The position numbers and the translations under genes are program-made. Positions 3,265 to 61,482 of a stretch of 64,000 nucleotides of DNA are shown one piece after another (the stretch's first letter is position 1; each line of letters starts with the position of its first letter). This stretch comes from Natrinema gari JCM 14663 (GTDB lineage: Archaea; Halobacteriota; Halobacteria; Halobacteriales; Natrialbaceae), in contig NZ_AOIJ01000043.1 of assembly GCF_000337175.1 (NCBI RefSeq), positions 302 through 64,301 on the forward strand, given 5' to 3'. The notes below the pieces were generated by a model. It did no database searches. It had not been told where the DNA came from and was given only the letters and a program-made list of their open reading frames with translations.

Positions 3265-4224
3265 TCAGACCAGGGCCTCGAGCAGCGAGCACTTCCGGCA
3301 CACGTCTCGCGTGGTCGTCGACCCGCACTCGGCGCAGTCCTGCAGCTCGGCCCCGTCGTCGCCGGCGTACTTTTCGGCGGCGATCGTCGCGAGTTCCTCG
3401 TATCCCGAGAGGATCGAGTGGCGAGTGCCGGGATGGTTCTCCTCCAAGTCATAGAGGAGTTGCTGGATCTCGCCGCGGTACGCCTCGCTCGCGTGGGGAC
3501 ATTCGGTGATGTGGGCGGGCAAATCGTTGACGTGGGCGTAGAGGGCGACTTCCTTTTCGGGGACGTCCCGCAGCGGTTTCGCCCGCGGGACGAACTCGTC
3601 TTGCTCCTCGCGCTCGGAGAGGGGGCCGAGGCTGGCGTCGAAGTGTTTCGCCATCTGTTCGACATCGCCCTCGAGGACGTTCATCAGTGCGGTCTGTGCC
3701 TCGTCGTCGAGATTGTGGCCGGTGAGAAGGAGATCGGCCTCGAGCTCCTCGGCGTATTTCGAGAGCAGGTCCCGCCGGAAGACCCCGCAGTAGGCACAGG
3801 CGGCCATGTTCTCGGGGTCGTCCTCGACGACGTCGTCCATCCGGACGCCGAACTCATCCTCGTAGCTGACGAGTTCGTGGCGGATCTCGAGGTCCTCGCA
3901 GAGTTCCACACACGCCTCGACGGACTTGTCGCGGTAGCCTTCGATCCCCTCGTGAATCGTCAGCCCGACGAGTTCGATTCGGGGGTCCTCTGCGAACGTG
4001 TCGTGGAGGATCCGCGTGAGGACGACGCTGTCCTTGCCACCCGAGAGGCCGATCACCCAGGTTTGGGGGGTCTCGGGCGTCGCGTAGTGAGGAACGAGAT
4101 CATCCCTGCGGACTCGACGGCGCACCCGCTTTTCGACCGACTCGCGGAAGTGATCCGCACAGAGGTGTGCCCCGGAGTAGGCGGCGTGCATGACCGCCTC
4201 CTCGTCACAGCGGTTACAGTCCAT
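3265..4224 (-). CDS. ncsA: tRNA 2-thiolation protein NcsA (TtuA/Ctu1 family)
   Basis: This ATP-pyrophosphatase of the NcsA/TtuA/Ctu1 family activates tRNA wobble uridine for 2-thiolation. It has an N-terminal zinc knuckle (MDCNRC...LCADHF), the PP-loop GLSGGKDS near residue 60, a central conserved Cys in CAYCGVFRRD, the GHNLDDEAQT motif, and a C-terminal zinc ribbon (CAEC...CRKC). At about 319 aa it is full length. The start at MDCNRC is preferred over an in-frame ATG 27 bp upstream because family members begin directly at the zinc knuckle. In Haloferax the orthologue also neighbours ftsZ2, and there it uses the ubiquitin-like SAMP2 as sulfur carrier. Confidence 0.93.
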   Translation of the reverse strand: MDCNRCDEEAVMHAAYSGAHLCADHFRESVEKRVRRRVRRDDLVPHYATPETPQTWVIGLSGGKDSVVLTRILHDTFAEDPRIELVGLTIHEGIEGYRDKSVEACVELCEDLEIRHELVSYEDEFGVRMDDVVEDDPENMAACAYCGVFRRDLLSKYAEELEADLLLTGHNLDDEAQTALMNVLEGDVEQMAKHFDASLGPLSEREEQDEFVPRAKPLRDVPEKEVALYAHVNDLPAHITECPHASEAYRGEIQQLLYDLEENHPGTRHSILSGYEELATIAAEKYAGDDGAELQDCAECGSTTTRDVCRKCSLLEALV

Positions 4225-22096: not shown

Positions 22097-23203
22097 CTAG
22101 ATCTCGCCGATGTGTTCCTGTTTGCGCATCAGGTAGAGGAAGTAGGGGCCGCCGAGGAGACCGGTGATGATTCCAACCGGCAACTGGACTGGATTCAATG
22201 CGAGGCGCGCACCCACGTCCGCACCGACGAGCAGGGCGGGACCGACGAACAGGCAGCCGACGAGGAGTCGTTTGGTGTCGCCGCCGACGATGTTTCGGAC
22301 CATGTGCGGGACGATCAAGCCGACGAAGCTGACGAGGCCGGCGACGGCGATTGCGGCGGCCGTCGCCAGGATCGCGATGCCGGCGACGAGAAAGCGGACC
22401 CGTTCGACCGACATGCCAAGCGATTTGGCGGTCTTCTCCCCCAGCAGGAGGATATCGAGCTGGCGGGTGACCGCGAGGGCCAACACGAGCGCGAGTATCG
22501 TAAACGGGAGCGCGATCCGCACCTGCTCCCAGTCGGTTCCCAGCAGCGATCCCGAGAGCCACGTCTGGGCCGCCATCGCGATCCCGAGATCGTCGATAAA
22601 GAAGAACAGGGCGCGCTGGACGGAGCCGAATACGGTCCCCACGATGACGCCGGCGAGGACGAGCCGGACCGGACTGGTGCCGTTTTTCCACGCGATGACG
22701 TACACGATGAGGAAGGCCCCGGCTCCGCCTGCGGCCGCCAGCACCGGGAGCCACGGCATAAGCCCCGAGAAGGCCGTCAGCGTCAGCAGGACGACGAGTC
22801 CGGCTCCATCGCTGATTCCCAGGATATAGGGGCTCGCGAGTTCGTTTCGGGTCACGATCTGGAAGATCGCGCCCGAAATCGCGAGATTCGAACCGACGAG
22901 AATCCCCACGAGGATCCGCGGGAGACGGATGTTCCAGACGATGAGTTGACGGGTCGTGAGCCAATCGGGGATGTCCCCGCCGAGGAGAAACGCTCGCCAG
23001 ACGCCGAGGTGGAAGACGACCTGTGGGTCGAACACGGTTCGCCACGCCTCGCCTAACGTCAGCGGATACGCGCCGAAGCTCACTTGCAAGAGCGTGGCGG
23101 CAAGGAGGACGCCGAGGCTTCCGAGGATCACCGAGACCAGTCTAGAATCGATCCACGCGGCGCTCGAGCGGTCGGTGTCGTGAGTCGCCGATGAGCCCGC
23201 CAT
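22097..23203 (-). CDS. FecCD-family ABC permease (siderophore/heme/cobalamin type)
   Basis: This 368-residue permease has about 9-10 transmembrane helices. FecCD signatures are visible: IRLPRILVGILVGSNLAISG, SPYILGISDGAG, and the coupling-helix region GLVSFVGLIVPHMVRNIVGG. It imports ferric siderophores, heme or cobalamin with a binding protein and an ATPase. The binding-protein gene lies 6 bp upstream in the same operon, under an iron box, which favours an iron substrate. No ATPase gene follows, so one encoded elsewhere must serve it, or the system is broken. Confidence 0.92.
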   Translation of the reverse strand: MAGSSATHDTDRSSAAWIDSRLVSVILGSLGVLLAATLLQVSFGAYPLTLGEAWRTVFDPQVVFHLGVWRAFLLGGDIPDWLTTRQLIVWNIRLPRILVGILVGSNLAISGAIFQIVTRNELASPYILGISDGAGLVVLLTLTAFSGLMPWLPVLAAAGGAGAFLIVYVIAWKNGTSPVRLVLAGVIVGTVFGSVQRALFFFIDDLGIAMAAQTWLSGSLLGTDWEQVRIALPFTILALVLALAVTRQLDILLLGEKTAKSLGMSVERVRFLVAGIAILATAAAIAVAGLVSFVGLIVPHMVRNIVGGDTKRLLVGCLFVGPALLVGADVGARLALNPVQLPVGIITGLLGGPYFLYLMRKQEHIGEI

Positions 23204-23209
23204 CAGCCG

Positions 23210-24349
23210 TCAGAACTCCCCGTTGATGATGGCCGCGAGTTCCTCACGGTCGAAGAGTCGTTCCGCCTCGGGCACGTCGGCGACCGCGCCTGGCCACGCA
23301 CCGAACCGGTCGGGGAAGACTTGCTTTGCAAGGGCCTCGGTCGAATAGAGATCGACGATCGGGCCCATATACTGCCCACCGGTGCGGACCAGGTTCCCGT
23401 TCTGAACGGCGGTCAACTGCTGGCCGTTCGGATCGTTCTCGAACGGTTCGACGGCCGTTGAGACGAACTCCTCGTGTGTCAGCGACGTGAGTCCACCGAC
23501 GGCACCGATGTAGTCGGGGTCGACATCGAGGAGTTCCTCGTAGCCGATGGGACCGTCGGGAATCCGTCCCTGGAAGGCGTCCCGAAGGCCGAGTTCGCGG
23601 TACGTCCGGGTGTTGTTCGCCATCGCGTCGATCTCGGCGATGCGGAACTGCCCGGACTCGGGATTGACGCCGCGCCAGATCGCGGCGACCGACGGGCGCT
23701 CGTCTTCGGGTGGCAGTTCCGATCGGATCCCCTCGATGAAGTCGTCGTAGAACGACTGCCACGCGTCGAACTGAGCCTGCCGCTGGAAGATCCGTGCGGC
23801 CTGCTCGAACGCACCGTAGAGATCGTAGGGCGGCTCCTTGCCGTCGGTCAGGGCATCGGACTGGAACCGGATCGTCGTCCCGAGGAACGGGCCGGTCGCC
23901 GATTCGATCTCCGCGATGTCGTCGTCGCTCCAGTCGGCGTAGAACTTCAGCGCCCGCGGGTCGATGAGGTTGACGTCGGCGTCCGCGGCGTAGAAGTTCT
24001 CCTTGTCGTAGCCCTCTTCCGCGCCGCCCGCGAGCAGCGTGACCGCGTCCGTGTCGAGGGAGACGTCAGGTAGCAACTCGTAGTACTTCAACGGAGCCCG
24101 GTCGAAGCTCGCGACGGCGGTGGGCTCGATTCCGAACGCCATTCCGATATCGAGCCAGACGCTCGGAATCGCGGTGTACGATTCCGGCACCGAGTCGAAC
24201 GTATGGCGAAAGTTCGGTTCGACGGTCACGGTATACGACTCGGTATCCGATCCCGAGTCGTCATCGGCGGTTGGATCCCCTGTACACCCTGCGACGGTCG
24301 CCGCAACGAGACTCGCACCGCTGGCGAGTACCGTTCGTCTCCCGGGCAT
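23210..24349 (-). CDS. Iron/siderophore ABC substrate-binding lipoprotein
   Basis: This protein of about 379 residues starts MPGRRTVLASGASLVAATVAGC, shown here as a Tat-like twin Arg followed by the lipobox VAGC, then an acidic Ser/Asp linker (DDDSGSDTES). The remaining domain is a class III-type periplasmic-binding fold. Start choice is decided by the promoter: the iron box (24352-24369) ends only a few bases before this ATG, as expected for a repressed leaderless transcript; a frame start upstream (24373) would cross the box. It forms an operon with the FecCD permease 6 bp downstream. Confidence 0.88.
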   Translation of the reverse strand: MPGRRTVLASGASLVAATVAGCTGDPTADDDSGSDTESYTVTVEPNFRHTFDSVPESYTAIPSVWLDIGMAFGIEPTAVASFDRAPLKYYELLPDVSLDTDAVTLLAGGAEEGYDKENFYAADADVNLIDPRALKFYADWSDDDIAEIESATGPFLGTTIRFQSDALTDGKEPPYDLYGAFEQAARIFQRQAQFDAWQSFYDDFIEGIRSELPPEDERPSVAAIWRGVNPESGQFRIAEIDAMANNTRTYRELGLRDAFQGRIPDGPIGYEELLDVDPDYIGAVGGLTSLTHEEFVSTAVEPFENDPNGQQLTAVQNGNLVRTGGQYMGPIVDLYSTEALAKQVFPDRFGAWPGAVADVPEAERLFDREELAAIINGEF

Positions 24350-24351
24350 AC

Positions 24352-24369
24352 TTTTAGGCACGCCTAAGA
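24352..24369. promoter_or_regulatory. Iron box (DtxR-type palindrome) of siderophore ABC operon
   Basis: TTTTAGGC-AC-GCCTAAGA is an inverted repeat centred on AC and lies directly ahead of the ATG at 24349. It matches the DtxR/IdeR/SirR consensus TTAGGnnnnCCTAA and the other six copies in this window. Repression under iron-replete conditions is inferred. Confidence 0.85.
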
Positions 24370-24528
24370 CCACATTAGTGATTCCGCACGTTCTCCGTTA
24401 CACGCCGTGTTACGCGTAACGCGGGTCGTAACGGACGCGCTTGCTGTGCGGACGAACATGGCCGATCGTCTCCCCATGCCGAAGCCGATACAAGGCGATC
24501 GAAAGAGCGACTGCAGTCGGACGAACTG

Positions 24529-25410
24529 CTACGTGTGCGGCCCCACGGGTTCGGTTTCGGACTGTCGTCGCGCAAGCGGGATCGACTCCGCCCGTTTCTC
24601 GGCGACCAGTTCCCGCGCCCAATCGACGACCGCGGGATGCGTACTCCTGACGACGTGGAAGCCGCCGGTCGCCCCGTTGCTGACCGAGAGGAAGACCGTC
24701 TCGTCGTCGATGAGATCGACGTTACACGGGAACCGTTGGTCGGCGCTGTAGTAGACCGGTCGCTCCGTCGCGGCCTCGATCATCTGCCATCGGTCAACGA
24801 GGTCCGGGTTCTTGAGGCTGACATCGGTCGCGCCACGATCGAAGACGACTGTCGCGTCAGGTGCATCCCCAGCGTGGAGGGATTCGGCGTGGGCGTACAT
24901 CGGCAGCGTGGTGAACGAACTGACGATGGCGCGGACGGTCGTCGCACGGCCGACCGCGTTCGCCACGACCCGCATCCCGGCGAGCGGGTCAGTCCCGTCG
25001 GTCGCGACGACATCACTGTCGGCGAGGCATCTGAGTTCGAAATCGAACCAGTCCGTCGGAAGCGCGTCGATCACGTCGGGATACCGTTGCCCGACGGTGA
25101 CCGTCTCGAGGAGGCGACGGAAATCGTCGTACACCGCCGCCCCTGTGTCCGTGATCGCGTAGCGTCCGTCGTCGTGGCAGCGGTCGATCCAGCGCCGGTC
25201 GGCCAGATCGCCGAGCGTCCGGCTGAGCGTCACTCGCGTGACGTCGGTTCCGGTAAGGAGTTCTTCGCGCGTGTGCGGTCCGTCCGCGAGGAGTCCGAGG
25301 ACGCGGACCCTGTGTTGTGACCGCGCGAGAAACGCTGCCCCCTCGATGGCCTCGGCCGTCGATCCACCACTCTCCCGTGTCGTCGTTGCCGGCAGTTGAT
25401 GCTCACTCAT
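24529..25410 (-). CDS. HTH transcriptional regulator with C-terminal methanogen-regulator-like domain
   Basis: This 293-residue protein has an N-terminal winged helix (about residues 30-85: HRVRVLGLLADGPHTREELL then VTRVTLSRTLGDLADRRWI). A larger C-terminal domain of the FilR1/MetHtrans-regulator type common in haloarchaea follows, with YAHAESLHAG and NGATGGFHVVRS. An iron box lies 23-38 bp upstream and overlaps its TATA region, so it is itself iron-controlled. It sits upstream of, and in the same direction as, the siderophore ABC operon and may tune it. Confidence 0.8.
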   Translation of the reverse strand: MSEHQLPATTTRESGGSTAEAIEGAAFLARSQHRVRVLGLLADGPHTREELLTGTDVTRVTLSRTLGDLADRRWIDRCHDDGRYAITDTGAAVYDDFRRLLETVTVGQRYPDVIDALPTDWFDFELRCLADSDVVATDGTDPLAGMRVVANAVGRATTVRAIVSSFTTLPMYAHAESLHAGDAPDATVVFDRGATDVSLKNPDLVDRWQMIEAATERPVYYSADQRFPCNVDLIDDETVFLSVSNGATGGFHVVRSTHPAVVDWARELVAEKRAESIPLARRQSETEPVGPHT

Positions 25411-25432
25411 CGTCGCCCCTGGTATCGAATTA

Positions 25433-25448
25433 TTTAGGCTGGCCTAAA
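25433..25448. promoter_or_regulatory. Iron box between divergent HTH and membrane-protein genes
   Basis: TTTAGGC-TG-GCCTAAA is a perfect 7-2-7 palindrome. On the minus strand it overlaps an AT-rich TATA-like segment about 25 bp ahead of the HTH gene's ATG. It is 81 bp upstream of the rightward membrane gene, so it most likely controls the regulator. Confidence 0.88.
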
Positions 25449-49995: not shown

Positions 49996-50922
49996 ATGTC
50001 CCTCTCGAGCCAAGCCGTACTCGTCACGGGCGGAGCCGGGTTCATCGGCTCTCATCTGACCGACCGCCTGCTCGCCGACGGCGTGACCGTCACGGTCGTC
50101 GACGACTGCTCGAACGGCGACCGACGCCGAGTACCCGACGCCGCCGACTTCCTCGAGGCCGATCTCACCGACCCCGACGCCCTCGACGGCCACCTCGACG
50201 ATATCGACCTCGTCGTCCACCTGGCTGCATCGAAACACGTCGACACGGACCGACCCCACGCCCAGTTCGATGCCAATACGCGGATGACGCGTAACATCCT
50301 TGAGGCGATGGCCGACGCGGGGGTCACGGAGATCGCGTACACGTCGTCCTCGACGGTCTACGGCGAGGCTCCCCGGCCGACGCCGGAAGATTACGCCCCC
50401 CTCGAGCCGATCAGCGCCTACGGGGCGAGCAAACTCGCGGACGAGGGGTTGCTCTCCGCGCGGGCTCACAGCCACGACCTGACGGTCTGGAACTTCCGCT
50501 TCGCGAACGTGGTCGGGCCGCGCCTGCGGGGAGCGGTGATCCCGGATTTCATCGAGAAGCTACAGGACGACCCCGAACACCTGACGATCCTCGGCGACGG
50601 CCGACAGGAGAAGTCCTATCTGCACGTCGAGGACTGCCTCGATGCGATCCTCCATACGATCGAGCACGCCGACGACGCGATGAACACCTACAACCTCGGC
50701 ACACGGACGACGACCTCGGTCGACCGGATCGCGACCATCGTCGCCGAGGAGTTAGGCGTCGACCCCGACCGCGAGTACACTGGCGGCGAACGGGGCTGGA
50801 CGGGCGACGTGCCGAAGATGCGCCTCTCGATCGAGAAACTCTCCGCGCTTGGCTGGGAGCCCCGTCGCTCGAGCGACGAGGCGGTGCGACGGGCGACCCG
50901 CGAGATAATCGACGAACTGTAG
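49996..50922 (+). CDS. NAD-dependent nucleotide-sugar epimerase/dehydratase
   Basis: This 308-residue extended SDR begins with VLVTGGAGFIGSH. Catalytic motifs SSSTVYGEA and YGASK (Tyr near residue 142) are present, with the family end VRRATREIID. It most resembles UDP-glucose 4-epimerase-type enzymes. No iron box is seen upstream, but it runs into the iron-controlled glycosylation block 136 bp downstream and probably supplies the sugar nucleotide. Confidence 0.88.
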   Translation: MSLSSQAVLVTGGAGFIGSHLTDRLLADGVTVTVVDDCSNGDRRRVPDAADFLEADLTDPDALDGHLDDIDLVVHLAASKHVDTDRPHAQFDANTRMTRNILEAMADAGVTEIAYTSSSTVYGEAPRPTPEDYAPLEPISAYGASKLADEGLLSARAHSHDLTVWNFRFANVVGPRLRGAVIPDFIEKLQDDPEHLTILGDGRQEKSYLHVEDCLDAILHTIEHADDAMNTYNLGTRTTTSVDRIATIVAEELGVDPDREYTGGERGWTGDVPKMRLSIEKLSALGWEPRRSSDEAVRRATREIIDEL

Positions 50923-51018
50923 TAAGCCGAGAGGCCCCACGTTGAACCGACCGGCTGCCGTCGTTCTCTCTGCCGGAAAACATACTCGAGAGTGACGGTA
51001 TCCCCCGCCAGGAGGTGT

Positions 51019-51034
51019 TTTAGGTGGGCTTAAA
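51019..51034. promoter_or_regulatory. Iron box ahead of flippase-like gene
   Basis: TTTAGGT-GG-GCTTAAA is a 7-2-7 inverted repeat with one imperfect pair. It overlaps the TATA-like TTAAATAT (51030-51037), which lies 25 bp before the ATG at 51059. Confidence 0.75.
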
Positions 51035-51058
51035 TATCTGGGCTCGAAGGACCCGGGC

Positions 51059-52225
51059 ATGAACGACGGGGGCGAGGGAGCGGACTCGCGGGGCATTGAC
51101 CGCGAGTCGCGAGGAGGGGGTGGGCGAGTGGCGAGCGAGCGGCTCGCTGCGGCGCTGACTCGCCGTCGGCTGACGATCGGGGGAACGCTGCTCGTCCTCG
51201 TGGGCCTGGTCGTCGCCTTCCGCGGGATCGATCTCCGGACCGTCGTGGCCGAAATTTCGAGCGCCGATCCGTTCGTGATCGGGGCCGCAGTCGTCGTCTA
51301 TACCGCGTCGTGGCCGCTTCGCGGTCGCCGGTACCGCGACGTGCTAGCCGCGATGGGGTATCGAGGGGGGACGGTCGTGCCGACGCTGGCCGTCTTCGTC
51401 AGTCAGACGGCGAACCTCGCGATTCCCGCGCGGGTCGGCGACGCGGTTCGCGCGTACGTGATGCGGACCCACCGCGATATCCCCTACGCCGCCGGGTTCG
51501 CGTCGCTGGCCGTCGAACGGGTGTTCGATCTGGCCACGATCGCCGCGCTCGCGGGGCTGGCGACCGGCTGGCTCGCGCTGGGCGGCGGGACCGGGCCGCT
51601 CGAGATCGTCGCGGCGGCCGGCGGTGCACGGACCGCTCTCGTCGCCGCGGCGGCCGTGAGCACGGCGACCGCCGGTGTCGGTATCGTCGTCGTCACGTCG
51701 GCTCGAGCCGATCACGGCTTCGGCGCGTGGCTACGAGTCCGAGCGGACGGCCGACCGCGTCTCGTGGGGGCGCTCGAGGCCGCGCTCCGGTTCGCAGGGG
51801 ACGTACAGATAGTCGCCCGGCAGCCGAAAGCGGTCGCGGCGATCGGCGTCGGGAGCCTGCTGGTGTGGATCCTCGACGTTCTCACGGCGGTGCTCGTGCT
51901 CGCGGCGCTGGGCAGCGGGCTTGCGGTCGGGCCCTTGCTGGCCGTCGGGACGCTGGCGGTCAGCGTGGGAAACCTCGCGAAGGTCCTCCCGCTGTCACAG
52001 GGCGGCGTCGGGCTCTACGAAGCCGCGTTCACGGCGCTCGTGGTCGGGCTCACCCCGATCGGTGCGAGCACGGCGCTGGCCGCGGCGATCGTCGATCACG
52101 CGCTGAAAAACGGTCTGACGCTGGTCGGCGGGGGCGGGGCGGTCCTCTCGCTTGGTCTCTCCGTCTCGGAGGCGACGGCGGAGGGGAGCGACGCGGGAGA
52201 CCGACAAGCTTTTAGGCGAGCCTAA
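51059..52225 (+). CDS. LPG-synthase-type membrane protein (UPF0104 flippase-like)
   Basis: This 388-residue polytopic protein has about eight transmembrane helices. The fold matches the lysylphosphatidylglycerol synthase transmembrane region / UPF0104, seen in VSQTANLAIPARVGDAVRAYVM and LPLSQGGVGLYEAAFTALVVG. Such proteins move or modify lipids or lipid-linked glycans. The N-terminal 30 residues are Gly/Arg-rich and cytoplasmic. Its stop lies inside the next iron box. Placement with glycosyltransferases suggests a lipid-linked sugar substrate. Confidence 0.83.
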   Translation: MNDGGEGADSRGIDRESRGGGGRVASERLAAALTRRRLTIGGTLLVLVGLVVAFRGIDLRTVVAEISSADPFVIGAAVVVYTASWPLRGRRYRDVLAAMGYRGGTVVPTLAVFVSQTANLAIPARVGDAVRAYVMRTHRDIPYAAGFASLAVERVFDLATIAALAGLATGWLALGGGTGPLEIVAAAGGARTALVAAAAVSTATAGVGIVVVTSARADHGFGAWLRVRADGRPRLVGALEAALRFAGDVQIVARQPKAVAAIGVGSLLVWILDVLTAVLVLAALGSGLAVGPLLAVGTLAVSVGNLAKVLPLSQGGVGLYEAAFTALVVGLTPIGASTALAAAIVDHALKNGLTLVGGGGAVLSLGLSVSEATAEGSDAGDRQAFRRA

Positions 52226-52226
52226 A
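52211..52226. promoter_or_regulatory. Iron box overlapping the flippase stop codon
   Basis: TTTAGGC-GA-GCCTAAA is a perfect 7-2-7 palindrome. It lies 14-29 bp before the ATG at 52240 and spans the TAA of the preceding gene, so the two genes can be controlled separately by iron. Confidence 0.88.
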
Positions 52227-52239
52227 AGACTGCGGAGCA

Positions 52240-53421
52240 ATGAGCCAGGATATCTGCGTCGTCGTCCCGACGATCCGGGAGTACGAGTGCATGCGCTCGT
52301 ACTTCGCGAACGCCCGCAACCACGGGTTCGATCTCGATCGATTGCACGTCGTCCTCGTCACCGAGGACTTCTGTGAGACCGACGAGATGGCGGCCATGCT
52401 CGAGGACGAAGGCGTCTCCGGCGAGGTCTTCGACGGCTCCCGGCGCGAGGAGTGGTACGACGACCACGGCGTCTCCGAGTACAGCCACGTCGTCCCGGCG
52501 GCGAGTCACGCCGAGACGAGTTTCGGTTTGCTGTACATGTGGGTCCACGACGAGTTCGACTACGGTTTCTTCATCGACGACGACACGCTCCCACATCCCG
52601 ACGAGGATTTCTTCGGCACTCACATGGCGAACCTCGCCTTCGAGGGCGAGCTCGAGTCGGTTGCCTCCGACGAGCAGTGGGTCAACGTTCTCTACCAGAA
52701 CGCCGACGAACACGGCCTCTATCCGCGTGGGTACCCCTACTCGGCGATGAACGAGACGGTCGAGACCGGGACGGCCGAGATCGGTGGCGGCGAGGTCGTC
52801 GCCTCGCAGGGCCTGTGGACCAACGTTCCCGACTTAGACGCCGTCCGCATCCTTATGGACGGCGACCTCGAGGGGCAGGCCCAGACTCGGACCTCGAGCG
52901 ACGACTTCGACGACGACTTCGTCGCCGAGCGGGGTAACTACCTCACCGTCTGCTCGATGAACCTCGCCTTCCGCCGCGAGGTCATCCCCGCGTTTTACCA
53001 GCTCCCGATGGACGACAACGAGTGGGACGTGGGCCGGTTCGACGACATCTGGTCGGGCGTCTTCCTCAAGCGCGCCTGCGACGTGCTCGGCACACGGATC
53101 TACAACGGCGCGCCACTGTGCGAGCACAACAAGGCTCCCCGGAGCACCTTCGACGATCTCAACAACGAAGTGCCGGGTCTCGAACTCAACGAACACCTCT
53201 GGCGCGTGATCGACGACGTCGGTGGCGACGCCGACTCCTATGCCGGCGTTTTCGAGGCGATGGCGGACGAACTTGCCGACGGCGACTGGGAAGCGTACAA
53301 CAACGGCGCGTTCTTCAACTACGTCGGCGAACACATGCGCGACTGGCTCGACTGTCTGGCGACGCTGCGCCCGGCGTCCGGTTTCGCGGCCGACCGCGAG
53401 CGCGTCGTCGCGGACGACTGA
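52240..53421 (+). CDS. Reversibly-glycosylated-polypeptide-like glycosyltransferase
   Basis: This 393-residue GT-A-type protein belongs to the family annotated as alpha-1,4-glucan-protein synthase / reversibly glycosylated polypeptide. It has the N-terminal strand CVVVPTIREYECM, a DxD motif in YGFFIDDDTLPHP and the acceptor-region segment DIWSGVFLKRACDVLG. In plants such proteins act as UDP-arabinose mutases; the haloarchaeal role is unknown. It has its own iron box and is followed by iron-transport genes. Confidence 0.82.
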   Translation: MSQDICVVVPTIREYECMRSYFANARNHGFDLDRLHVVLVTEDFCETDEMAAMLEDEGVSGEVFDGSRREEWYDDHGVSEYSHVVPAASHAETSFGLLYMWVHDEFDYGFFIDDDTLPHPDEDFFGTHMANLAFEGELESVASDEQWVNVLYQNADEHGLYPRGYPYSAMNETVETGTAEIGGGEVVASQGLWTNVPDLDAVRILMDGDLEGQAQTRTSSDDFDDDFVAERGNYLTVCSMNLAFRREVIPAFYQLPMDDNEWDVGRFDDIWSGVFLKRACDVLGTRIYNGAPLCEHNKAPRSTFDDLNNEVPGLELNEHLWRVIDDVGGDADSYAGVFEAMADELADGDWEAYNNGAFFNYVGEHMRDWLDCLATLRPASGFAADRERVVADD

Positions 53422-53438
53422 ACCGTCAACTATAAGTT

Positions 53439-53454
53439 TTTAGGTTAGCCTAAA
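53439..53454. promoter_or_regulatory. Iron box of iron ABC operon
   Basis: TTTAGGT-TA-GCCTAAA is a 7-2-7 palindrome lying between the TATA box TATAAGT (53431-53437) and the ATG at 53461. A repressor bound here would block the leaderless start directly. Confidence 0.9.
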
Positions 53455-53460
53455 GCAGGT

Positions 53461-54621
53461 ATGAACGACGAGCAGGATGATCAGGGGGTTTCGCGTCGCC
53501 GAGCGTTACAGGTCGGCTCCGCGTTCGGGGCTGCGTCGCTTGCGGGCTGTCTCGGGATGTTCGGCGACGACGAGGGCACGACCATCCCGTCGATTTCGGA
53601 GTTTCGGGGCTCCGGATCGCTGGTCGACGGCCGACCGGCACCGGGCGGGACCTCTATCGAGGAGTTGCCGGACCTCTCGGGGGACCTCGCGCTCTACATC
53701 GGCGGCGGTGAAGGGGGAATCTACTACGAGTTCGTGGAGATGCTCCAAGAGATTTACCCCGAGTTCGAGGTCTATCCGACCGATAACAACTCGGCGTCGC
53801 TGGCACAGACGATCGTCGAGGAGGCCGGCTCCGGCGCGTCGCAGGCCGACGTGTTCTGGTCGATCGACGCCAGTTCGCTCGGGTTCGTCGCGGAAAACGA
53901 CGCCTACGAACCGCTGTCGGACGAGGCGGTCGGCGCAGTCGGCAACAGCCAGTTCGTCGGCGACGACAACGCATGGGCCGGTGTCGCCGGGCGCGCACGC
54001 GCCGTCCCGTACAACACGAACCAGTTGAGCGAGTCGGACATTCCGAACACCGTTCAGGACTTCCCGGACACGAGCGCGTTCCAGGATGCGATGGGCTGGG
54101 CCCCGACCTACGGTGCGTTCAAGTCGTTCGTGACGGCTATGCGGCTGCTCCGCGGCGACGACGAGACCCGCAACTGGCTGCGCAGTATGCAAGATGCCGG
54201 GACCGAACGATACAGCAACGAGTACGCCGTCTCCCAAGCGGTTGCCAACGGTTCCCAGTCGGCCGGCTTCGCCAACCACTACTACGCGATGCGGGTCAAG
54301 AACAAGCGGCCGGACGCCCCGATCGATCTAGCCTTCACCGAAGGCGACGCCGGGGCATTGATCAACGTCGCCGGCGCGCTGAAGGTCAAGGGTACCAAGC
54401 GCGGCGATCTGGTCGACGACTTCGTCCGTCACCTGCTGTCGTCCGAGGCCCAGGAGTTCTTCGCGACGATCAGTTTCGCCTACCCGATGATCGCCGGGGT
54501 CGAGCCCGTCGGTGGCCTGCCGACGATCGATGAGCTGAGCCCGCCGGATATCGATCTCGCGGACCTGGCGAACATCGAGCCGACCCTCGAGTTGATGGAC
54601 GACGCCGGCGTCTCGGGATGA
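53461..54621 (+). CDS. Fbp-type iron ABC substrate-binding lipoprotein
   Basis: This 386-residue protein has a Tat signal (SRRRALQVG) and lipobox LAGC. The mature domain is a class II binding protein for ferric iron; the tyrosine pair in NHYYAMR matches the FbpA/FutA iron-binding tyrosines. It is directly under an iron box. The permease start overlaps its stop (ATGA at 54618-54621). The start MNDEQDDQG is fixed by the TATA box 25-30 bp upstream. Confidence 0.9.
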   Translation: MNDEQDDQGVSRRRALQVGSAFGAASLAGCLGMFGDDEGTTIPSISEFRGSGSLVDGRPAPGGTSIEELPDLSGDLALYIGGGEGGIYYEFVEMLQEIYPEFEVYPTDNNSASLAQTIVEEAGSGASQADVFWSIDASSLGFVAENDAYEPLSDEAVGAVGNSQFVGDDNAWAGVAGRARAVPYNTNQLSESDIPNTVQDFPDTSAFQDAMGWAPTYGAFKSFVTAMRLLRGDDETRNWLRSMQDAGTERYSNEYAVSQAVANGSQSAGFANHYYAMRVKNKRPDAPIDLAFTEGDAGALINVAGALKVKGTKRGDLVDDFVRHLLSSEAQEFFATISFAYPMIAGVEPVGGLPTIDELSPPDIDLADLANIEPTLELMDDAGVSG

Positions 54622-56231
54622 GCGGTCGGGAACGCGTTGCGAAGGCAGTCGAGCGAACGGGCGACGGCGGGAGCGGTGCCGCCGGCGTCGGGCTCACGCT
54701 GCTCGCCGCGGCCATCGCAGCCGTTCTCGTGCTCCCGCTGCTCTGGCTGGTTGTCGATGCCGCCGGACTCGGTCCGCGAGCGTTCGAGCTCGCCGTCGAC
54801 CCCCAGACGATCGACGTACTGGTCCGGAGCGTCGCCCTCGTCGCCATCGTAACGGGGGCGAGTATCGTCATCGGCGTGCCGCTCGCGGTGTTGACGGTGC
54901 AGGGCGAGATCCCGTTTCCCCGGTTCTGGACCGTCCTCATCGCGCTCCCGCTTGCCGTCCCGAGCTATCTCGGCGCGTTCGCGTTCGTCTCGGCGTTCGG
55001 TCCGCAGGGCGAACTCGTCGACTTCCTCGAGCCGCTGGGAGTCGATGCGCTCCCCTCAGTCTACGGATTCGCCGGTGCCGCGTTCGTGCTGACGCTGTAC
55101 ACCTACCCGTACGTGTTCCTGACGACGCGTGCCTCCCTGCTTTCGATGGATGGCTCGCTCGTGGAAGCCGCTCGCACGCTCAATTCGGGCCGCTGGGAGG
55201 CGTTTCGACGGATTACCTTCCCACAGATCCTGCCGGGAGTCGCGGCCGGGGCCCTGCTCGTCGCGCTGTACGCCCTCGCTGACTTCGGCACGCCGAATAT
55301 CATGCGCGTCGAGGTGTTCACGCAGTTCATCTACGCCAGATACAACGCCTTCGCCCGCGACTACGCCGCGTTGCTGTCGCTACAGCTGTTGACGGTGACC
55401 GCGATCATCCTCGCGATCGAGTCCCGGATCGGAGTCGACGAATCGGGCGCGTACGAGAGCGGCGGCGATCGCGGCACCGCCGACCTCGAGCTCGGCGCGT
55501 GGCGATATCCGGCGCTGCTGGTGCCGGTCGTGATCGCCCTGCTCGCGATCGGGCTCCCGATCGCGATCTTCTGGATGTGGCTGAACACGGGCGGCCCCGG
55601 CTATCAGGTCGGCCGCCTGAGCTTCGACTGGGAGTACGGATTCAACTCGGCGTACGTCGCGTTGCTGGCTGCCGCGGTCTCGGTCCTCGTGGCGCTGCCG
55701 ATCGCGATCGGATCGGCGACCTCCGACTCGCGGATAGCCACGTTGGCCGATCGAGCCCCCTACGTCGGCTACGCGACGCCGGGAATCGTGCTGGCGATCG
55801 CGTTGCTCAGTTTCAGTCTCGACGTGCTACCGGAGATCTACAAGACGGTCCCGTTGCTGATCTTCGCCTACGTCGTCCGCTTCATGCCCCAGGCGATCGG
55901 GTCGATCCGGACGTCGACGCTGCAGGTCGACCGGAAGTTGGTCGAGGCTGCCCGGACCCTCGGTCGGTCGCGCTTGAACGCCTTCCGGTCGGTGACCCTC
56001 CCACTGATCCTCCCAGGCGTGGCCGCCGGGGCCGCACTGGTCTTTCTGACCACGATGAAAGAGTTACCGGCGACGCTGATGTTACGTCCGCTTGGATTCG
56101 AGACGCTGGTGACGTACATCTGGCGGGTCGAAGAGGCGGGTCTCTACGGCCAGGCGGCGGTCCCGGCGCTCGTGTTGGTCGCCATCTCGGGGCTGTCGAT
56201 GGCCGTCATGCTCGCACAGGACGGACGATGA
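54618..56231 (+). CDS. Fbp-type iron ABC permease (two fused permease halves)
   Basis: This 537-residue permease has about 12 helices and two EAA-type coupling loops, EAARTLNSGRWEAFRRI and EAARTLGRSRLNAFRSV, as in FbpB/ThiP permeases. It pairs with the preceding binding protein for ferric iron import. The ATPase gene usually found beside it is missing; a glycosyltransferase gene follows instead, overlapping by 4 bp. Confidence 0.93.
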   Translation: MSGRERVAKAVERTGDGGSGAAGVGLTLLAAAIAAVLVLPLLWLVVDAAGLGPRAFELAVDPQTIDVLVRSVALVAIVTGASIVIGVPLAVLTVQGEIPFPRFWTVLIALPLAVPSYLGAFAFVSAFGPQGELVDFLEPLGVDALPSVYGFAGAAFVLTLYTYPYVFLTTRASLLSMDGSLVEAARTLNSGRWEAFRRITFPQILPGVAAGALLVALYALADFGTPNIMRVEVFTQFIYARYNAFARDYAALLSLQLLTVTAIILAIESRIGVDESGAYESGGDRGTADLELGAWRYPALLVPVVIALLAIGLPIAIFWMWLNTGGPGYQVGRLSFDWEYGFNSAYVALLAAAVSVLVALPIAIGSATSDSRIATLADRAPYVGYATPGIVLAIALLSFSLDVLPEIYKTVPLLIFAYVVRFMPQAIGSIRTSTLQVDRKLVEAARTLGRSRLNAFRSVTLPLILPGVAAGAALVFLTTMKELPATLMLRPLGFETLVTYIWRVEEAGLYGQAAVPALVLVAISGLSMAVMLAQDGR

Positions 56232-58288
56232 CGAACGTGCCACCGGCGATCCGACGGGCGGCAGCCGCAGTGCGAAAGCGCCGGTGGCGGACCGCCGTTG
56301 CCCTCGTCGCGATCACCGGCGCCGTCGCCGTCTGGCTGGTCGCGACGCGGACCTTTCCGTACCACTCGCTCAACCACGACGAAGGGGTCTACCTCCAGCA
56401 GGCGTCGATGTTGCTCGAGGGCCGACTGTTCGTACGGCCGCCCGTTGCGGACGCGTTCCGTCCCTGGTTCTTCATCGAGGACGGCGACCGGCTCTACCCG
56501 AAGTACTCGCCGGTTCCTGCGGCGATCTTCGCGATCGGCAAGCTCGCGGGTGGCGCCCGGCTCGTGCTCCCGGGACTCGCCGCCGCCATCCTCACGCTCG
56601 TGGCGCTGGTCGTTCGCGAAGTCTTCGATCGACGGACCGGCCTCGTCGCCGCCGTCGCAGTGTTGTGTTCGCCGCTGTTCTTGATCGAGACGGCGGTGTT
56701 CCTGCCGTACGCGCCGACGGCGATGCTCAACCTGACGTTCGCATACGCCTATCTCAGGGCCGACCGAACGGACGACCTGCGAGTTGCCGCCGCCGCCGGG
56801 GCCGCGATCGGCGCGGCCTTCTTCGCGCGACCGTACACTGCCATCCTGTTCGCCGTCCCCTTCATCGGCCACGCGTGCTGGAGCCTCTCCCGTGATTTCC
56901 GGGGCGCGCTCCCCAGGCAGGCCACGACGGCGGGGCTCGGACTGGCCGGCGTCGGACTGGCGCTTGGCTACAACGCCGTCGTGACCGGGTCGCCGCTGTT
57001 GTTCCCCTACGAGGCGTTCGCCCCGCTCGACGGGTTGGGATTCGGTCGACGGCGGATCCTCGAGCACGAGATCGAGTACACCGTCGGACTTGCGCTCCGG
57101 TCGAACGCGCTGGTACTGCGGTCGTTTGTCACCGAGTGGCTCGTCGGCGGACTGCTGGGCGTGGCGCTGGCTGCGGCCGGAATCGGCGTCGCAGTCCGCC
57201 GCGGCCTCTCAGCACGCGCGGCGATCCTCGCCGGCCAGGTGCTCACGATCACCGTCGGCAACGTCTACTTCTGGGGGAACTTCAACATTCTCGGCGACAT
57301 CGACCGCGCCGGAACCGGGCTGATCGCCACTCACGGTCCCTACTATCACTTCGATCTCCTGCTCCCGGTCGCGGCCTTTGCCGCCGTCGGCGCGCTGGCG
57401 CTGTTCGACGCCGTCCGCCGACGGGCTGACCGGTCCCTCTCACCGCAGGGCGCGCGGACGGCCGTCGTCGTAGTGGTGCTCGTGAGCGCGCTCGCGGTCG
57501 GCGGGGTGACCGCGACGACCCTCGACGGGAAACTCGAGCGAAACGAGGCCGTCACCGAGACCTACGAACGGGTCTACGACCCGCTCGAGGACGGGACGAT
57601 CGAGGAGCCGGCGGTCGTGTACCTGCCGACGCCGTACGGCGACTGGCTCGCCCACCCGTTGCAGGCGCTTCGGAATGACCCTGGGTTCGACGGGGACCGC
57701 ATCTACGCCCTCGACGAGCGACCGTTCGACGTGGCCGACGCGTATCCCGACCGCTCGCTGTACCGACTCGCGTACCGGGGCACCTGGGCACCGCATGCCG
57801 GGTCGCCACAGGGGGCCCGTCTCCAGCGGGTCGATCGGGTCGCCGGCGAGACGGTCGCGCTGAACGTGAGCGTTGGCGTCCCGGACGCAGCCAGCAGCGT
57901 CACCGCGACCGTCACCACCGACGAGGCCAGCGAGACCTACGTCGCCGACACCGTTTCGACCGCGTCCGAGGCGCAACTGCTCGTCACTGCCGACGCGGTG
58001 CGATTGCGCGGGACGGGCTGGGACACCAACAGCACGGTTCCCGTCGGGGAGCGAGACGACATCGAACTGACCGTCTTCGTCGACCGCGGCCCCGGGAGCA
58101 GTTACAGCTATCGGCTCGAGGTGCCGGTACAGGCGGAAAACGAGACGGTGCGAGCGCTGACGCCCAGCGTGGAACGGTGTAGCGCGATTCGAGAGTGCGG
58201 TGGCGAAGCGGCGTATCTGCCAGAGCGCGCGCCGGACGGCACGTTCGTTCGGACCGAGCTCACTGCGCTGGATCGCAAACGGGATTGA
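56228..58288 (+). CDS. GT-C type membrane glycosyltransferase with C-terminal domain
   Basis: This 686-residue protein has about 10 N-terminal transmembrane helices. The first extracytoplasmic loop carries SLNHDEGVYLQQAS, the acidic DE motif of PMT/ArnT-type GT-C enzymes that use lipid-linked sugars. After about residue 430 comes an extracellular beta-rich domain of some 240 residues. It is translationally coupled (ATGA) to the iron permease gene, so it is part of the iron-controlled operon. The frame is open much further upstream, but that part is the permease gene read out of frame. Acceptor and donor are unknown. Confidence 0.82.
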   Translation: MTNVPPAIRRAAAAVRKRRWRTAVALVAITGAVAVWLVATRTFPYHSLNHDEGVYLQQASMLLEGRLFVRPPVADAFRPWFFIEDGDRLYPKYSPVPAAIFAIGKLAGGARLVLPGLAAAILTLVALVVREVFDRRTGLVAAVAVLCSPLFLIETAVFLPYAPTAMLNLTFAYAYLRADRTDDLRVAAAAGAAIGAAFFARPYTAILFAVPFIGHACWSLSRDFRGALPRQATTAGLGLAGVGLALGYNAVVTGSPLLFPYEAFAPLDGLGFGRRRILEHEIEYTVGLALRSNALVLRSFVTEWLVGGLLGVALAAAGIGVAVRRGLSARAAILAGQVLTITVGNVYFWGNFNILGDIDRAGTGLIATHGPYYHFDLLLPVAAFAAVGALALFDAVRRRADRSLSPQGARTAVVVVVLVSALAVGGVTATTLDGKLERNEAVTETYERVYDPLEDGTIEEPAVVYLPTPYGDWLAHPLQALRNDPGFDGDRIYALDERPFDVADAYPDRSLYRLAYRGTWAPHAGSPQGARLQRVDRVAGETVALNVSVGVPDAASSVTATVTTDEASETYVADTVSTASEAQLLVTADAVRLRGTGWDTNSTVPVGERDDIELTVFVDRGPGSSYSYRLEVPVQAENETVRALTPSVERCSAIRECGGEAAYLPERAPDGTFVRTELTALDRKRD

Positions 58289-58366
58289 GACGCGTGTCGA
58301 ACGAGGATCGAGTGCCCAGTCGAACCGTAGCGAGACGCCTCGCTCGGGGGGAGGACCCGGCCGTGA

Positions 58367-59122
58367 CTACTGCGCCGGGCGATGTGGGAGTTCGCGGAGT
58401 CGCTCCTCGAGCGAGACCTTGACGATCGAGCGGGCGATCTCGAGCCCGCCCTGCAGCGGATCGAGTTTCGTCTGCCCGGCGCGCTCGCGGTACTCGATGG
58501 GGTGTTCGCGAACGTCGTAGCCCCGCATCAGCGGGCGGATCAGGAGTTCGGCGGAGAGGCCGGTGTTCTCGGTCCACTCGATGTCCTCGACGACGTTGCG
58601 CCGGTAGGCCCGCATGCCGGTCGTCGTGTCGTGGACACGGGTGCCCAACAGGAGGCTCGCGGCCGCGGCGAAGGCGTGATTGCCGAAGCGGTTGAGCGCC
58701 GGCATCGCGTCGGCCCCATGATAGAGGCGGTCACCACTGACGACATCGGAGCCGTCATTGATCAACGCGAGAAACTCCGGAAGCTGCTCCATGGGATAGG
58801 TGTCGTCGCAGTCGGTCGTGACGACGATCGGCCGGTCGGGCTCGAGGACGGCCGCGCGGACGGCGACGCCGTACCCCTGTGGCTCCTGTTCGATGACCGT
58901 CGCGCCGTGGTCGCGGGCAATTTCGGGGGTTCGATCCGACGACCCGTCGACACAGACGACCTCGGCCTTCCCGTCGGTGACGTCGTCGATGTCGGTCAGT
59001 ACCTTGCCGATCGCTTCCTCCTCGTTGTACGTTCCCATGACGACGGTGACATCGTCGAAAGTGAACTGTTCGCCCGTCTCGTGGCTCCGTTCCGCCGGTT
59101 CGGTCGGCGCTCCGTTACTCAT
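58367..59122 (-). CDS. Dolichyl-phosphate-type GT2 glycosyltransferase
   Basis: This 251-residue GT2 enzyme has VTVVMGTYNEEEAIG near residue 25, a DxD motif in VVTTDCDDTYPM, and RVHDTTTGMRAYRR typical of dolichol-phosphate mannose/glucose synthases. No C-terminal membrane segments are present. It converges with the GT-C operon and has its own iron box 33-48 bp upstream. It likely makes the lipid-linked sugar used by GT-C enzymes; this is inference. Confidence 0.87.
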   Translation of the reverse strand: MSNGAPTEPAERSHETGEQFTFDDVTVVMGTYNEEEAIGKVLTDIDDVTDGKAEVVCVDGSSDRTPEIARDHGATVIEQEPQGYGVAVRAAVLEPDRPIVVTTDCDDTYPMEQLPEFLALINDGSDVVSGDRLYHGADAMPALNRFGNHAFAAAASLLLGTRVHDTTTGMRAYRRNVVEDIEWTENTGLSAELLIRPLMRGYDVREHPIEYRERAGQTKLDPLQGGLEIARSIVKVSLEERLRELPHRPAQ

Positions 59123-59154: not shown

Positions 59155-59170
59155 TTTAGGTTTGCCTAAA
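59155..59170. promoter_or_regulatory. Iron box of GT2 glycosyltransferase gene
   Basis: TTTAGGT-TT-GCCTAAA is a 7-2-7 palindrome. On the minus strand it sits just upstream of TATA-like CATAAATAC (about 59143-59152), 33 bp before the ATG. Confidence 0.87.
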
Positions 59171-59293: not shown

Positions 59294-60943
59294 TTATCGA
59301 ATGGACGACATCGTCTCGAGGACGTGGTCCGCGGCCTTCAGTGCCAGCGCTGCGATCGTCAGCGTCGGGTTCATCGCCCCGGCGGTCGGGAAGACGCTGC
59401 TCGAGGCGATCCAGCAGTTCTCGAGGTCGTGCGTTCGCAGGTCGGGGCCGACGACGCTCTCGGTCGGTGCCGACCCCATCCGGGTCGTCCCCATGTGGTG
59501 GTAGGCCGGCCCCGTCCCCTCGGGGCCGACCTGCCAGGTGATCTCCGCGCCGAGTTCGTCGAGGATCCGTTCTTGGACCTCGTTGACGCGCTCGATCGTC
59601 TCGAGCGCCCGATCGCCGACCGTCCAGTGGACGTTGGGGACGGGATTGCCGTGATCGTCGGTCGTTGAGTGGTCGAGCCCGACGTAGCTGTCCTCGCGAG
59701 GGAGCTGTTCGACGAGCCCGCCCATCCCGATGTGGCTGCCGTAGTCCGAGCGGAGCCGCTCGAGCAGGTCGTCGCCCCAGTCGTCGCCGGTCAGCGCTAG
59801 CTCCACAGGCGAGGGGCCGTCGTAGTTGAAGAACTCGAGTTTGAACGGGGCCTGCTCGGCGTCGGCCTCGTCGTAGAACTGGTGGGACTCGCTGGTCAGG
59901 AAGCCGACGTGGTTCTGGCGCGTGGGTTCGTCGAGGACGCCGCCGGTGCCCGCAAAGAGGTGGTCCATGAAGTACCGCCCGACGAGGCCGCTCGAGTTGG
60001 CCAGCCCGTCGGGGTAGTGGCTCGACGCGGAGAGCAAGAGCAGCCGGGGCGTCTCGACGCCGCCGCAGGCGATGACGAAGGCATCGGCCGACTGGCGGTG
60101 GGACTCGCCGTCCGGCGTCGCGTAGACGGCCGCCTCGATCGCGTCGGGACCGTGCTCGAGCCGCTGGACCGGTGCGTGGTCAATCACCGTCGCACCCTTC
60201 CGCTCGGCGCGCTCGACGTGGACCGTCGCGTCGTACTTCGCGCCGGACGGACAGACCGGCTGGCAGGTGCCGTAGCCGACGCAGGCGCTGCGACCGTCGT
60301 ATCCCTCCGAGTTGCGTGCGTTGGGCACCGAGTGCATCGCGATCTCGAGTTCGTCGCAGGCCGCGGCGAACAGCGAGTCGCTGTAGGAGGGGGGAAACGC
60401 CGGCATCGGATGTGGCTCCTCGCGGGGCGGTGCGAAGGGGTTGTCGGCCGCGCCGGCGACGCCCAGTTCCCGCTCGGCCGCGGCGTAGTAGGGCTGCAGG
60501 TCGGCGTAGTCGATCGGCCAGTCGGCTCCGACGCCGCGGACGCTGGCGGAATCGAAGTCGTCCTCGTGGAGCCGCATCACCATCCCCTGCCAGTGCAGCG
60601 TCGAGCCGCCGACGCCGCGGGCGCGGGCGTGGTTCAGCGGATAGAACCGCTCTCCTGTGGATTTGTAGGCGTCCCGCTCAGGGTCACCGTCCCAGACATC
60701 CGGACGGTCGTAGGCGGGACGGATCGCGCGCTCCTGGCGGGCGAGGCGCTCGTCGGGATCGAACCGCGGCCCCGCCTCGAGGATCACGACCTCCCGACCG
60801 GCCTCGGCGAGACGGTCCGCAACGATGCCGCCCGCCGGACCCGCACCGATGACGCAGACGTCGGCGTTCGCGACGGGGGTCCGGTCGGCATCACCGTCGG
60901 CCCCCGACGCCGCCGAGCCGGCGGGTGCTCGGTCCCAACTCAC
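59294..60943 (-). CDS. GMC-family oxidoreductase
   Basis: This 549-residue FAD enzyme has the dinucleotide motif VIGAGPAGGIVADRLAEAG (about residue 32), the Cys-rich segment CVGYGTCQPVCPSG seen in gluconate/sorbitol-dehydrogenase-type GMC proteins, and a C-terminal HHMGTTRMG with the active-site His. It oxidises sugars or sugar acids. Its start overlaps the end of the small subunit gene (ATGA), making a membrane-linked dehydrogenase without an adjacent cytochrome subunit. Confidence 0.9.
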   Translation of the reverse strand: MSWDRAPAGSAASGADGDADRTPVANADVCVIGAGPAGGIVADRLAEAGREVVILEAGPRFDPDERLARQERAIRPAYDRPDVWDGDPERDAYKSTGERFYPLNHARARGVGGSTLHWQGMVMRLHEDDFDSASVRGVGADWPIDYADLQPYYAAAERELGVAGAADNPFAPPREEPHPMPAFPPSYSDSLFAAACDELEIAMHSVPNARNSEGYDGRSACVGYGTCQPVCPSGAKYDATVHVERAERKGATVIDHAPVQRLEHGPDAIEAAVYATPDGESHRQSADAFVIACGGVETPRLLLLSASSHYPDGLANSSGLVGRYFMDHLFAGTGGVLDEPTRQNHVGFLTSESHQFYDEADAEQAPFKLEFFNYDGPSPVELALTGDDWGDDLLERLRSDYGSHIGMGGLVEQLPREDSYVGLDHSTTDDHGNPVPNVHWTVGDRALETIERVNEVQERILDELGAEITWQVGPEGTGPAYHHMGTTRMGSAPTESVVGPDLRTHDLENCWIASSSVFPTAGAMNPTLTIAALALKAADHVLETMSSIR

Positions 60944-61458
60944 GCGTTCGGCCCCCGCTGGTAGGTCCCGATCCCGCCCGCGTGGCCCTGTGGGTTCTCG
61001 AGGCCGACCAGTTCGCCGCCGGTCGGCGAGGCGTACAGCGCCAACAGGAGATCGTTGACGACGTAGTACCGGACCCGTTCGCTCGCCGTCCCCGACGGGT
61101 CCTCGTCGGCGTCGTCGGCCCCCACGTTCCGCAGGACCTGCTCGCGGTCGGCGACCGACAGCGCCGCGAACTCGGCGTCGTACCAGACCCGCGCGTTCCC
61201 ATCCAGTTCCGCAACCGCCTCGTCGAGCCCCGCGACGTGGGCCCGGTCCGCGAGCCGTCCCTCGAGGAAGGCCGCGACGAACGGTTCGATCCCGGACACC
61301 GCGCTCGGATAAACGACCTCAGCGGCCGCGATCAGCGTCTCGCGGAGGTGCTCGACGGCGACCGGCTCCGAGCCAGGCGGGGCGACACAGCCCGCCAGCG
61401 TCCCCCCGAGGCCGAGCGCAGACAGCGCGGCGACCGCGTCTCGCCTCGTCAGTTCCAT
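60940..61458 (-). CDS. Gluconate 2-dehydrogenase subunit 3 family protein
   Basis: This 172-residue protein has a Tat signal (LTRRDAVAALSALG) with lipobox LAGC. The mature part matches the small subunit of gluconate-dehydrogenase-type complexes, which aids export and assembly of the FAD subunit. It is the first gene of the pair, under an iron box whose centre lies 17 bp upstream of the ATG. It overlaps the GMC gene by 4 bp. Confidence 0.87.
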   Translation of the reverse strand: MELTRRDAVAALSALGLGGTLAGCVAPPGSEPVAVEHLRETLIAAAEVVYPSAVSGIEPFVAAFLEGRLADRAHVAGLDEAVAELDGNARVWYDAEFAALSVADREQVLRNVGADDADEDPSGTASERVRYYVVNDLLLALYASPTGGELVGLENPQGHAGGIGTYQRGPNA

Positions 61459-61466
61459 GTGGATGG

Positions 61467-61482
61467 ATTAGGCAGACCTAAA
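61467..61482. promoter_or_regulatory. Iron box of the GMC dehydrogenase operon
   Basis: ATTAGGC-AG-ACCTAAA is an imperfect 7-2-7 palindrome between a TATA-like ATATATG (on the minus strand, about 61484-61490) and the ATG at 61458. Confidence 0.78.

Follow-up and report, generated by a model that had tools for sequence, protein, structure and literature searches.

Haloarchaea possess a dolichyl-phosphate sugar route, the Agl branch (AglD/AglS), and in mycobacteria decaprenyl-phosphate-arabinofuranose, the furanose of which is formed on the lipid by epimerization, feeds the GT-C enzymes Aft and Emb. We know of no tie between the Agl branch and iron, and of neither iron control nor a link to an iron importer for the mycobacterial Aft/Emb pathway. 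Acquisition of Fe(III) by haloarchaea in brine is poorly understood. A haloarchaeal DtxR/Idr iron regulon has reportedly been described (Leyn and Rodionov 2015; Schmid 2011), and to our knowledge no glycan or sugar-oxidase module has been reported for it. Literature searches for a link between iron and glycans in haloarchaea returned nothing on the locus described here. In the iron-starvation proteome of Haloferax volcanii (PMC11349517), HVO_0655, a GalE-family epimerase (+12.7), and HVO_1859, a UPF0104 protein (+11.6), which resemble two products of the present locus at the family level, are among the most induced proteins, and the rest of the module genes are unnamed in the available portion of that account. 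An RGP gene is present in H. volcanii.

The window, i.e. the whole stretch of 64,000 nucleotides of Natrinema gari DNA that was analysed, contains all of the contiguous genes listed in an earlier, sequence-only reading. Six are on the plus strand: a GalE-like NAD-dependent sugar epimerase/dehydratase gene (49996..50922; Pfam Epimerase, 3.8e-55), a gene for a PF03706/UPF0104 flippase-like membrane protein (51059..52225), which is found at the locus in some lineages only, rgp (52240..53421; GT75, RGP/UAM, PF03214), fbp for an FbpA-type Fe(III)-binding lipoprotein (53461..54621), perm for a fused two-domain FbpB-type ABC permease (54618..56231; PF00528 twice), and gtc for a GT-C membrane glycosyltransferase (56228..58288; PMT_2 and DUF7846). 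The seventh, gt2, encodes a GT2 dolichyl-phosphate hexose transferase on the minus strand (58367..59122). The 4-bp overlaps noted earlier between fbp and perm and between perm and gtc are both ATGA. A longer ORF for gtc (55499-58288) is an over-extension, the true start being the ATG at 56228. A further pair next door (59294-61458) was overlooked: gmc, encoding a GMC flavoprotein sugar dehydrogenase (59294..60943), and g3, encoding its Tat-type lipoprotein small subunit (60940..61458; Gluconate_2-dh3, PF13618, 4.7e-8), both on the minus strand and overlapping by GTGA.

Predicted iron boxes with the palindromic pattern TTAGG-N4-CCTAA precede these genes. The four boxes recognized earlier are all present, and a fifth had been missed. 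The first, with one mismatch, lies 5' of the flippase-like gene (51020..51033) and overlaps an A/T-rich TTAAATA element. The others are located 5' of rgp (52212..52225, with perfect arms; 69 of 80 related loci are boxed at this gene), 5' of fbp (53440..53453, perfect and immediately 3' of a CTATAAG element; 74 of 79 loci), 5' of gt2 (59156..59169, perfect; 49 of 61 loci), and, as the additional box, 5' of the g3/gmc unit (61468..61481; 46 of 52 loci). These boxes are not chance occurrences. A relaxed pattern gave 17 matches in the window, counting both strands of palindromes, where 1.24 were expected and none of 100 shuffles gave more than 4, and the exact pattern occurs 23 times in the whole 4.02-Mb genome versus 0 times for a reversed control pattern. 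Comparison of 80 related loci placed 266 of the 273 boxes directly upstream of module genes (controls, 0). The epimerase gene, previously counted as a member, has its own upstream box in 0 of 30 related loci and is variable in position, and was therefore rejected as a core gene; it is a variable neighbour. Elsewhere in the genome, boxes are found at FecB/FecCD siderophore importers, at a class-III aminotransferase/PLP-decarboxylase pair of the type used for siderophores, near two ferritins, before the FbpC ATPase gene and 5' of a DtxR-family gene, so that both features of a DtxR/Idr regulon, i.e. palindromic boxes at iron-gene promoters and a DtxR-family gene, are present.

The gene order proved to be kept well beyond close relatives, as the sequence-only reading had proposed to check: rgp-fbp-(perm-ATPase)-gtc was found in 40 of 40 loci from nine families, with fbp always placed between the sugar genes rgp and gtc, and the order rgp-fbp-gtc was also found in 79 named loci, counted where uninterrupted by a contig end. 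Across 116 genomes, rgp, gtc, gt2, and gmc are either all present (92 genomes) or all absent (24 genomes), although these genomes all belong to one class, Halobacteria, and hence are not independent. This all-or-none pattern includes 43 genomes in which gmc is unlinked and holds for discordant species within five genera. No RGP was found outside the class in a sample of the phylum. All 20 unlinked gmc loci examined have exactly one box, beside g3/gmc, and gmc and g3 are predicted to be a second two-gene unit of the same module. The gt2 gene is boxed mainly where it is linked to the module: copies of gt2 alone elsewhere lack a box in 10 of 11 cases (one is boxed), which suggests that some of the pathway could be expressed constitutively and excludes the view that gt2 is always iron-regulated. 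Most of the 24 genomes devoid of the sugar module retain an Fbp-type importer, usually boxed; the sugar is thus not required for Fbp import as such, and the importer is not bound strictly to the sugar genes, at least in this direction. It is strongly supported that most haloarchaea carry predicted sugar-making and sugar-oxidizing genes and an iron importer under a common predicted iron-starvation switch. The coupling proposed earlier hence stands as predicted co-regulation with an FbpA-type importer in most of Halobacteria, except for the epimerase gene and most solitary gt2 copies, which are unboxed.

The fbp product has a Tat/lipobox signal, its best PDB match is of the FbpA/HitA type (1e-44), and the Tyr-Tyr iron-ligand motif of this family is present in the protein and in 79 of 79 orthologues. 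The importer ATPase gene is missing from the locus; a 61% orthologue of the cognate ATPase is encoded on another contig (C82), with its own box immediately upstream.

The RGP protein had been regarded as a glycosyltransferase, but comparison with MtdL, which works in the synthesis of the antibiotic A201A (PMC9937993), points to a predicted NDP-pyranose mutase. It matches MtdL in the PDB by sequence (4e-27) and, over its whole length, by fold (Foldseek E 1e-18, TM 0.73-0.78; the next matches are at 1e-5). Its DDD motif (residues 113-115) and metal-binding His296 align with D109-111 and H287 of MtdL, the catalytic, auto-glycosylated arginine corresponds to Arg163, and the Ser228/Arg257/Asp260 set of MtdL is conserved as Ser239, Arg266, and Asp269. 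The GT2 protein scored 410 bits against NF041391 (curated cut-off, 375), identifying it as a dolichyl-phosphate hexose transferase. The GT-C protein carries an NHDE motif at residues 49-52, an extra C-terminal domain and, as expected of its class, an acidic motif in the first external loop together with a GT-C fold. Its sequence profile matched no relative in the PDB, and its relatives were recognized by fold only: the model (pLDDT 86.6) matches OST, ALG12, ArnT, and AftA, and the matches include AftA, AftB, AftD, and Emb at 12-15% identity. The WWD motif of OST is absent from this protein and from all 32 aligned sequences, and an oligosaccharyltransferase of the AglB/STT3 type was therefore rejected. 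The GMC protein, encoded together with its Gluconate_2-dh3 subunit, is similar to glucose dehydrogenase (1.2e-91) and fructose dehydrogenase (~1e-75) in the PDB and contains a CX5CX3C motif at residues 221-231.

These data suggest an iron-starvation regulon unit in which the making and oxidizing of a special surface sugar would be coupled to an FbpABC-type ferric importer, a reading to which we assign a probability of roughly 0.4. Its gene content and predicted regulation, as read from sequence, are strongly supported, and the glycan may have a role in iron acquisition. In the order of steps that we infer, a DtxR/Idr-type repressor would occupy the TTAGG-N4-CCTAA promoter boxes while iron inside the cell suffices, and five promoters would open when iron is low. 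The GT75 mutase would convert an NDP-pyranose to what is probably an NDP-furanose, GT2 would charge dolichyl phosphate with a sugar, the PF03706 protein would assist its crossing of the membrane, and the GT-C enzyme would move it, outside, onto an acceptor, which may be a lipid, a glycan, or a protein. At the surface, the exported GMC protein and its lipoprotein subunit would then oxidize the sugar, presumably creating keto or acid functions as potential ligands of Fe(III), and iron held near the membrane would be handed to the Fbp lipoprotein and imported via the permease and the FbpC ATPase encoded elsewhere. This specific form, i.e. a cell-tethered, non-siderophore capture of iron by a furanose surface glycan oxidized in place by GMC to Fe(III) ligands and followed by import through the FbpABC system of the same unit, is rather unlikely.

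Regulatory coupling alone could also explain the boxes and the linkage, if the iron regulator induces, as a stress-related remodelling of the envelope, a different surface glycan serving adhesion, biofilm formation, protection, or iron sparing, with the importer merely co-regulated and the sugar standing outside uptake. This explanation, which is tentative but deserves serious weight, agrees with the finding that other genomes have the importer but no sugar module and with the frequent distance of gmc from fbp. However, co-regulation alone needs no fixed adjacency of rgp, fbp, and gtc, and the invariable central position of fbp in the 40 loci therefore disfavours it. The tight string containing fbp and gtc, and a GT-C fold nearest to transferases of protein- or lipid-linked glycans, would fit a system in which GT-C glycosylates Fbp or other secreted iron carriers, stabilizing or localizing them, and the GMC pair trims or oxidizes the glycan. 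This is improbable: the OST motif is missing from all 32 orthologues, no acceptor motif was found, and gt2 and gmc are present together even where they are unlinked, which points to a more extensive pathway. Similarly low odds apply to a diffusible chelator, i.e. external aldonic or keto sugar acids made by GMC/Gluconate_2-dh3 that solubilize Fe(III), the glycosyl-transfer genes supplying or anchoring the substrate. The solved dehydrogenases closest to GMC and the iron box found at gmc wherever it is located (20/20) are consistent with this, but perfect co-occurrence with a GT75 mutase and a GT-C enzyme would hardly be expected of an oxidase acting on free sugars. That the genes are unrelated and came to lie side by side by chance or through shared ancestry, for which the non-independence of genomes from a single class might speak, can be given almost no credence and is already contradicted by the joint gain and loss of the four genes within genera and by the boxes that accompany gmc to dispersed sites.

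What sets the coupled sugar-importer unit apart is an all-or-none four-gene sugar module that is tied to one importer and one regulator box even when scattered. It predicts that surface sugar chemistry belongs to the archaeal iron-starvation response and, if this is true, GT75 mutases in archaea would gain a physiological role.

The palindromic box and the iron genes are common to the haloarchaeal DtxR/Idr regulon and the Natrinema locus. Binding protein, fused permease, ATPase, and Tyr-Tyr site are shared with FbpABC/HitABC importers, whereas the Natrinema importer is embedded among sugar genes and its ATPase is on a separate contig. The DDD motif, catalytic positions, and full-length fold are common to the Natrinema RGP, MtdL, and plant RGP/UAM (PMC9937993), although, compared with MtdL, the Natrinema protein differs at four substrate- or diphosphate-contact positions (D87 to H, Q229 to M, R289 to K, and H292 to R) and sits in an iron-boxed archaeal locus. 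FAD-dependent glucose/fructose dehydrogenase complexes likewise consist of a catalytic and a small Tat subunit and show the CX5CX3C motif, but the Natrinema pair is iron-boxed and co-occurs with glycan genes. The mycobacterial Aft/Emb pathway parallels the proposed module in its logic of a furanose donor, a polyprenyl phosphate carrier, and an external GT-C enzyme. Finally, a dolichyl-phosphate hexose synthase, a PF03706-type protein, and a membrane transferase are shared with the Agl branch (cf. PMC3871713), from which the Natrinema genes differ in being separate, iron-boxed, and accompanied by a GT75 mutase and a GMC oxidase.

The window lies in contig C43 of the 4.02-Mb source genome. The sequence-only reading had proposed an iron-responsive glycan assembly system coupled to iron uptake (49996-59122), and all of the genes on which it relied were found. 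An epimerase, a PF03706 flippase-like protein (flip), RGP (rgp), an Fbp lipoprotein (fbp), a fused permease (perm), and a GT-C enzyme (gtc) are encoded on the plus strand, and GT2 (gt2) on the minus strand, with ATGA overlaps at both the fbp/perm and perm/gtc junctions. On its far side, GT2 is adjoined by minus-strand genes for a GMC oxidoreductase (gmc) and a small Gluconate_2-dh3-family Tat lipoprotein (g3, the small subunit), which share a GTGA overlap.

This gene order extends well into other haloarchaea: rgp, fbp, and gtc follow one another on the same strand in 40 of 40 loci from nine families, and the order in the named locus set agrees with that of the 40 loci. Two arrangements of perm were observed among the related loci. 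In the first, perm is located between fbp and gtc, usually together with an ATPase gene, and in the second it is found on the other side of the GMC unit, from which a shared box separates it. When presence was compared per genome in 116 genomes (gt2 being scored at the high-identity level), the sets for rgp, gtc, gt2, and gmc were identical, i.e. all four genes in 92 genomes and none in 24; one of the latter, G103, contains a more distant GMC homologue (56%) that was left uncounted. Fisher's test for this co-occurrence gave p = 2e-25, a value that overstates independence because the 116 genomes are related. Discordant species were also found inside five genera, showing that gain or loss affects all four genes jointly. 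These data indicate that the module is real and strongly conserved. The rgp gene is split between two frames in two genomes (G085:C1:1566210-1567421 and G038:C1:2905023-2906225), possibly reflecting a frameshift or an assembly error, and second, more distant RGP homologues are encoded outside the module at G021:C38:6266-7387 (63%) and G010:C2:1525565-1526305 (35%).

Within the module, five genes (flip, rgp, fbp, gt2, and that for the small subunit) are each preceded by a TTAGG-N4-CCTAA palindrome (iron box) ending 7-35 bp from the start codon; the flip box contains one mismatch, and most of the five boxes are accompanied by a TATA-like element. In total, 23 exact TTAGGYNNRCCTAA sites were identified genome-wide, versus none for the reversed control pattern. 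Elsewhere in the source genome, the boxes accompany genes for an FbpC ATPase, FecB/FecCD importers, an aminotransferase/decarboxylase pair, ferritins, and a DtxR-family protein, and are thus markers of an iron regulon. Across the 80 named loci, which total 1.58 Mb, 273 boxes were detected, whereas the reversed and permuted-arm controls yielded none, and 266 of the 273 lie upstream of module genes at a distance of no more than 350 bp. A box precedes rgp in 69 of 80 cases, fbp in 74 of 79, gt2 in 49 of 61, and the small subunit gene in 46 of 52. In 43 of the 92 genomes, gmc is unlinked (separated from rgp by >25 kb, or located on a different contig), and at all 20 such sites examined a single box is present, where the g3/gmc unit begins. 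From the boxes and the genes that they accompany, we infer that the module is very probably iron-controlled.

A second iron-boxed locus is present in the window at 22097-25447. On the minus strand, it contains genes for a FecB-like lipoprotein and a FecCD permease, with a box at 24354 that falls inside the start of the called ORF; the true start is therefore probably located downstream. The locus also encodes a winged-helix regulator of the HVO_A0261 type (24529-25410), which has a box at 25434. In contig C61, a box (position 3399 of locus L188) precedes the start of a DtxR-family gene by about 40 bp, and a ferritin gene is located close by on the opposite strand; the DtxR-family gene is probably that of the iron regulator, subject to autoregulation. 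A double box was found 5' of a gene for a secreted CARDB-domain protein in contig C35 (L182, 3628-3675). The genes at two further sites, i.e. a box at 3915 flanked by a DUF7090 gene and a methyltransferase gene (L184, contig C52) and boxes at 3454 and 3490 ahead of a DUF7551/DUF7552 gene (L185), are candidate new members of the iron regulon.

The closest relatives of RGP are Natrinema records, and a profile search matched it to MtdL, a GT75 mutase. RGP retains D109-111, R159, S228, R257, D260, and H287 of MtdL, for which residue roles have been described (PMC9937993), and differs at D87, Q229, R289, and H292; its predicted model (pLDDT 76.7) matches the MtdL fold over the whole length, with no other match comparable. 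In the predicted GT-C model (pLDDT 86.6), residues 9-537 match OST, ALG12, ArnT, PMT, and Aft/Emb enzymes (VIA Z up to 27.6), and a further C-terminal domain lies outside these residues. GT2 belongs to a curated family of dolichyl-phosphate hexose transferases. The Fbp lipoprotein has FbpA/HitA relatives (best 1e-44), with Tyr-Tyr present in 79 of 79 sequences. The relatives of GMC include solved glucose and fructose dehydrogenases. Across Halobacteria, the GMC subunit is well conserved and its small partner (60940-61481) diverges more (43-94% identity).

On the basis of these identities, RGP, as a GT75 member, would supply a furanose product, GT2, the PF03706 protein, and GT-C would export and transfer the sugar, and the Tat lipoprotein subunit suggests oxidation at the surface. 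A role in iron capture, the weakest step, may be reflected in the constant placement of fbp, which is flanked by rgp and gtc. Most genomes that lack the sugar module still have an Fbp importer, usually a boxed one, and the sugar would therefore supplement Fbp import without being required for it.

No description of such coupling between sugar genes and iron import was found in the open literature searched, although the central studies of the regulon may already mention the module genes as members; as far as could be checked, the function is new. H. volcanii encodes a PF03214 protein and, according to its iron-starvation proteome study (PMC11349517), strongly induces a UPF0104 protein as well as an epimerase of the GalE family; these inductions, while not proof, are consistent with the same system.
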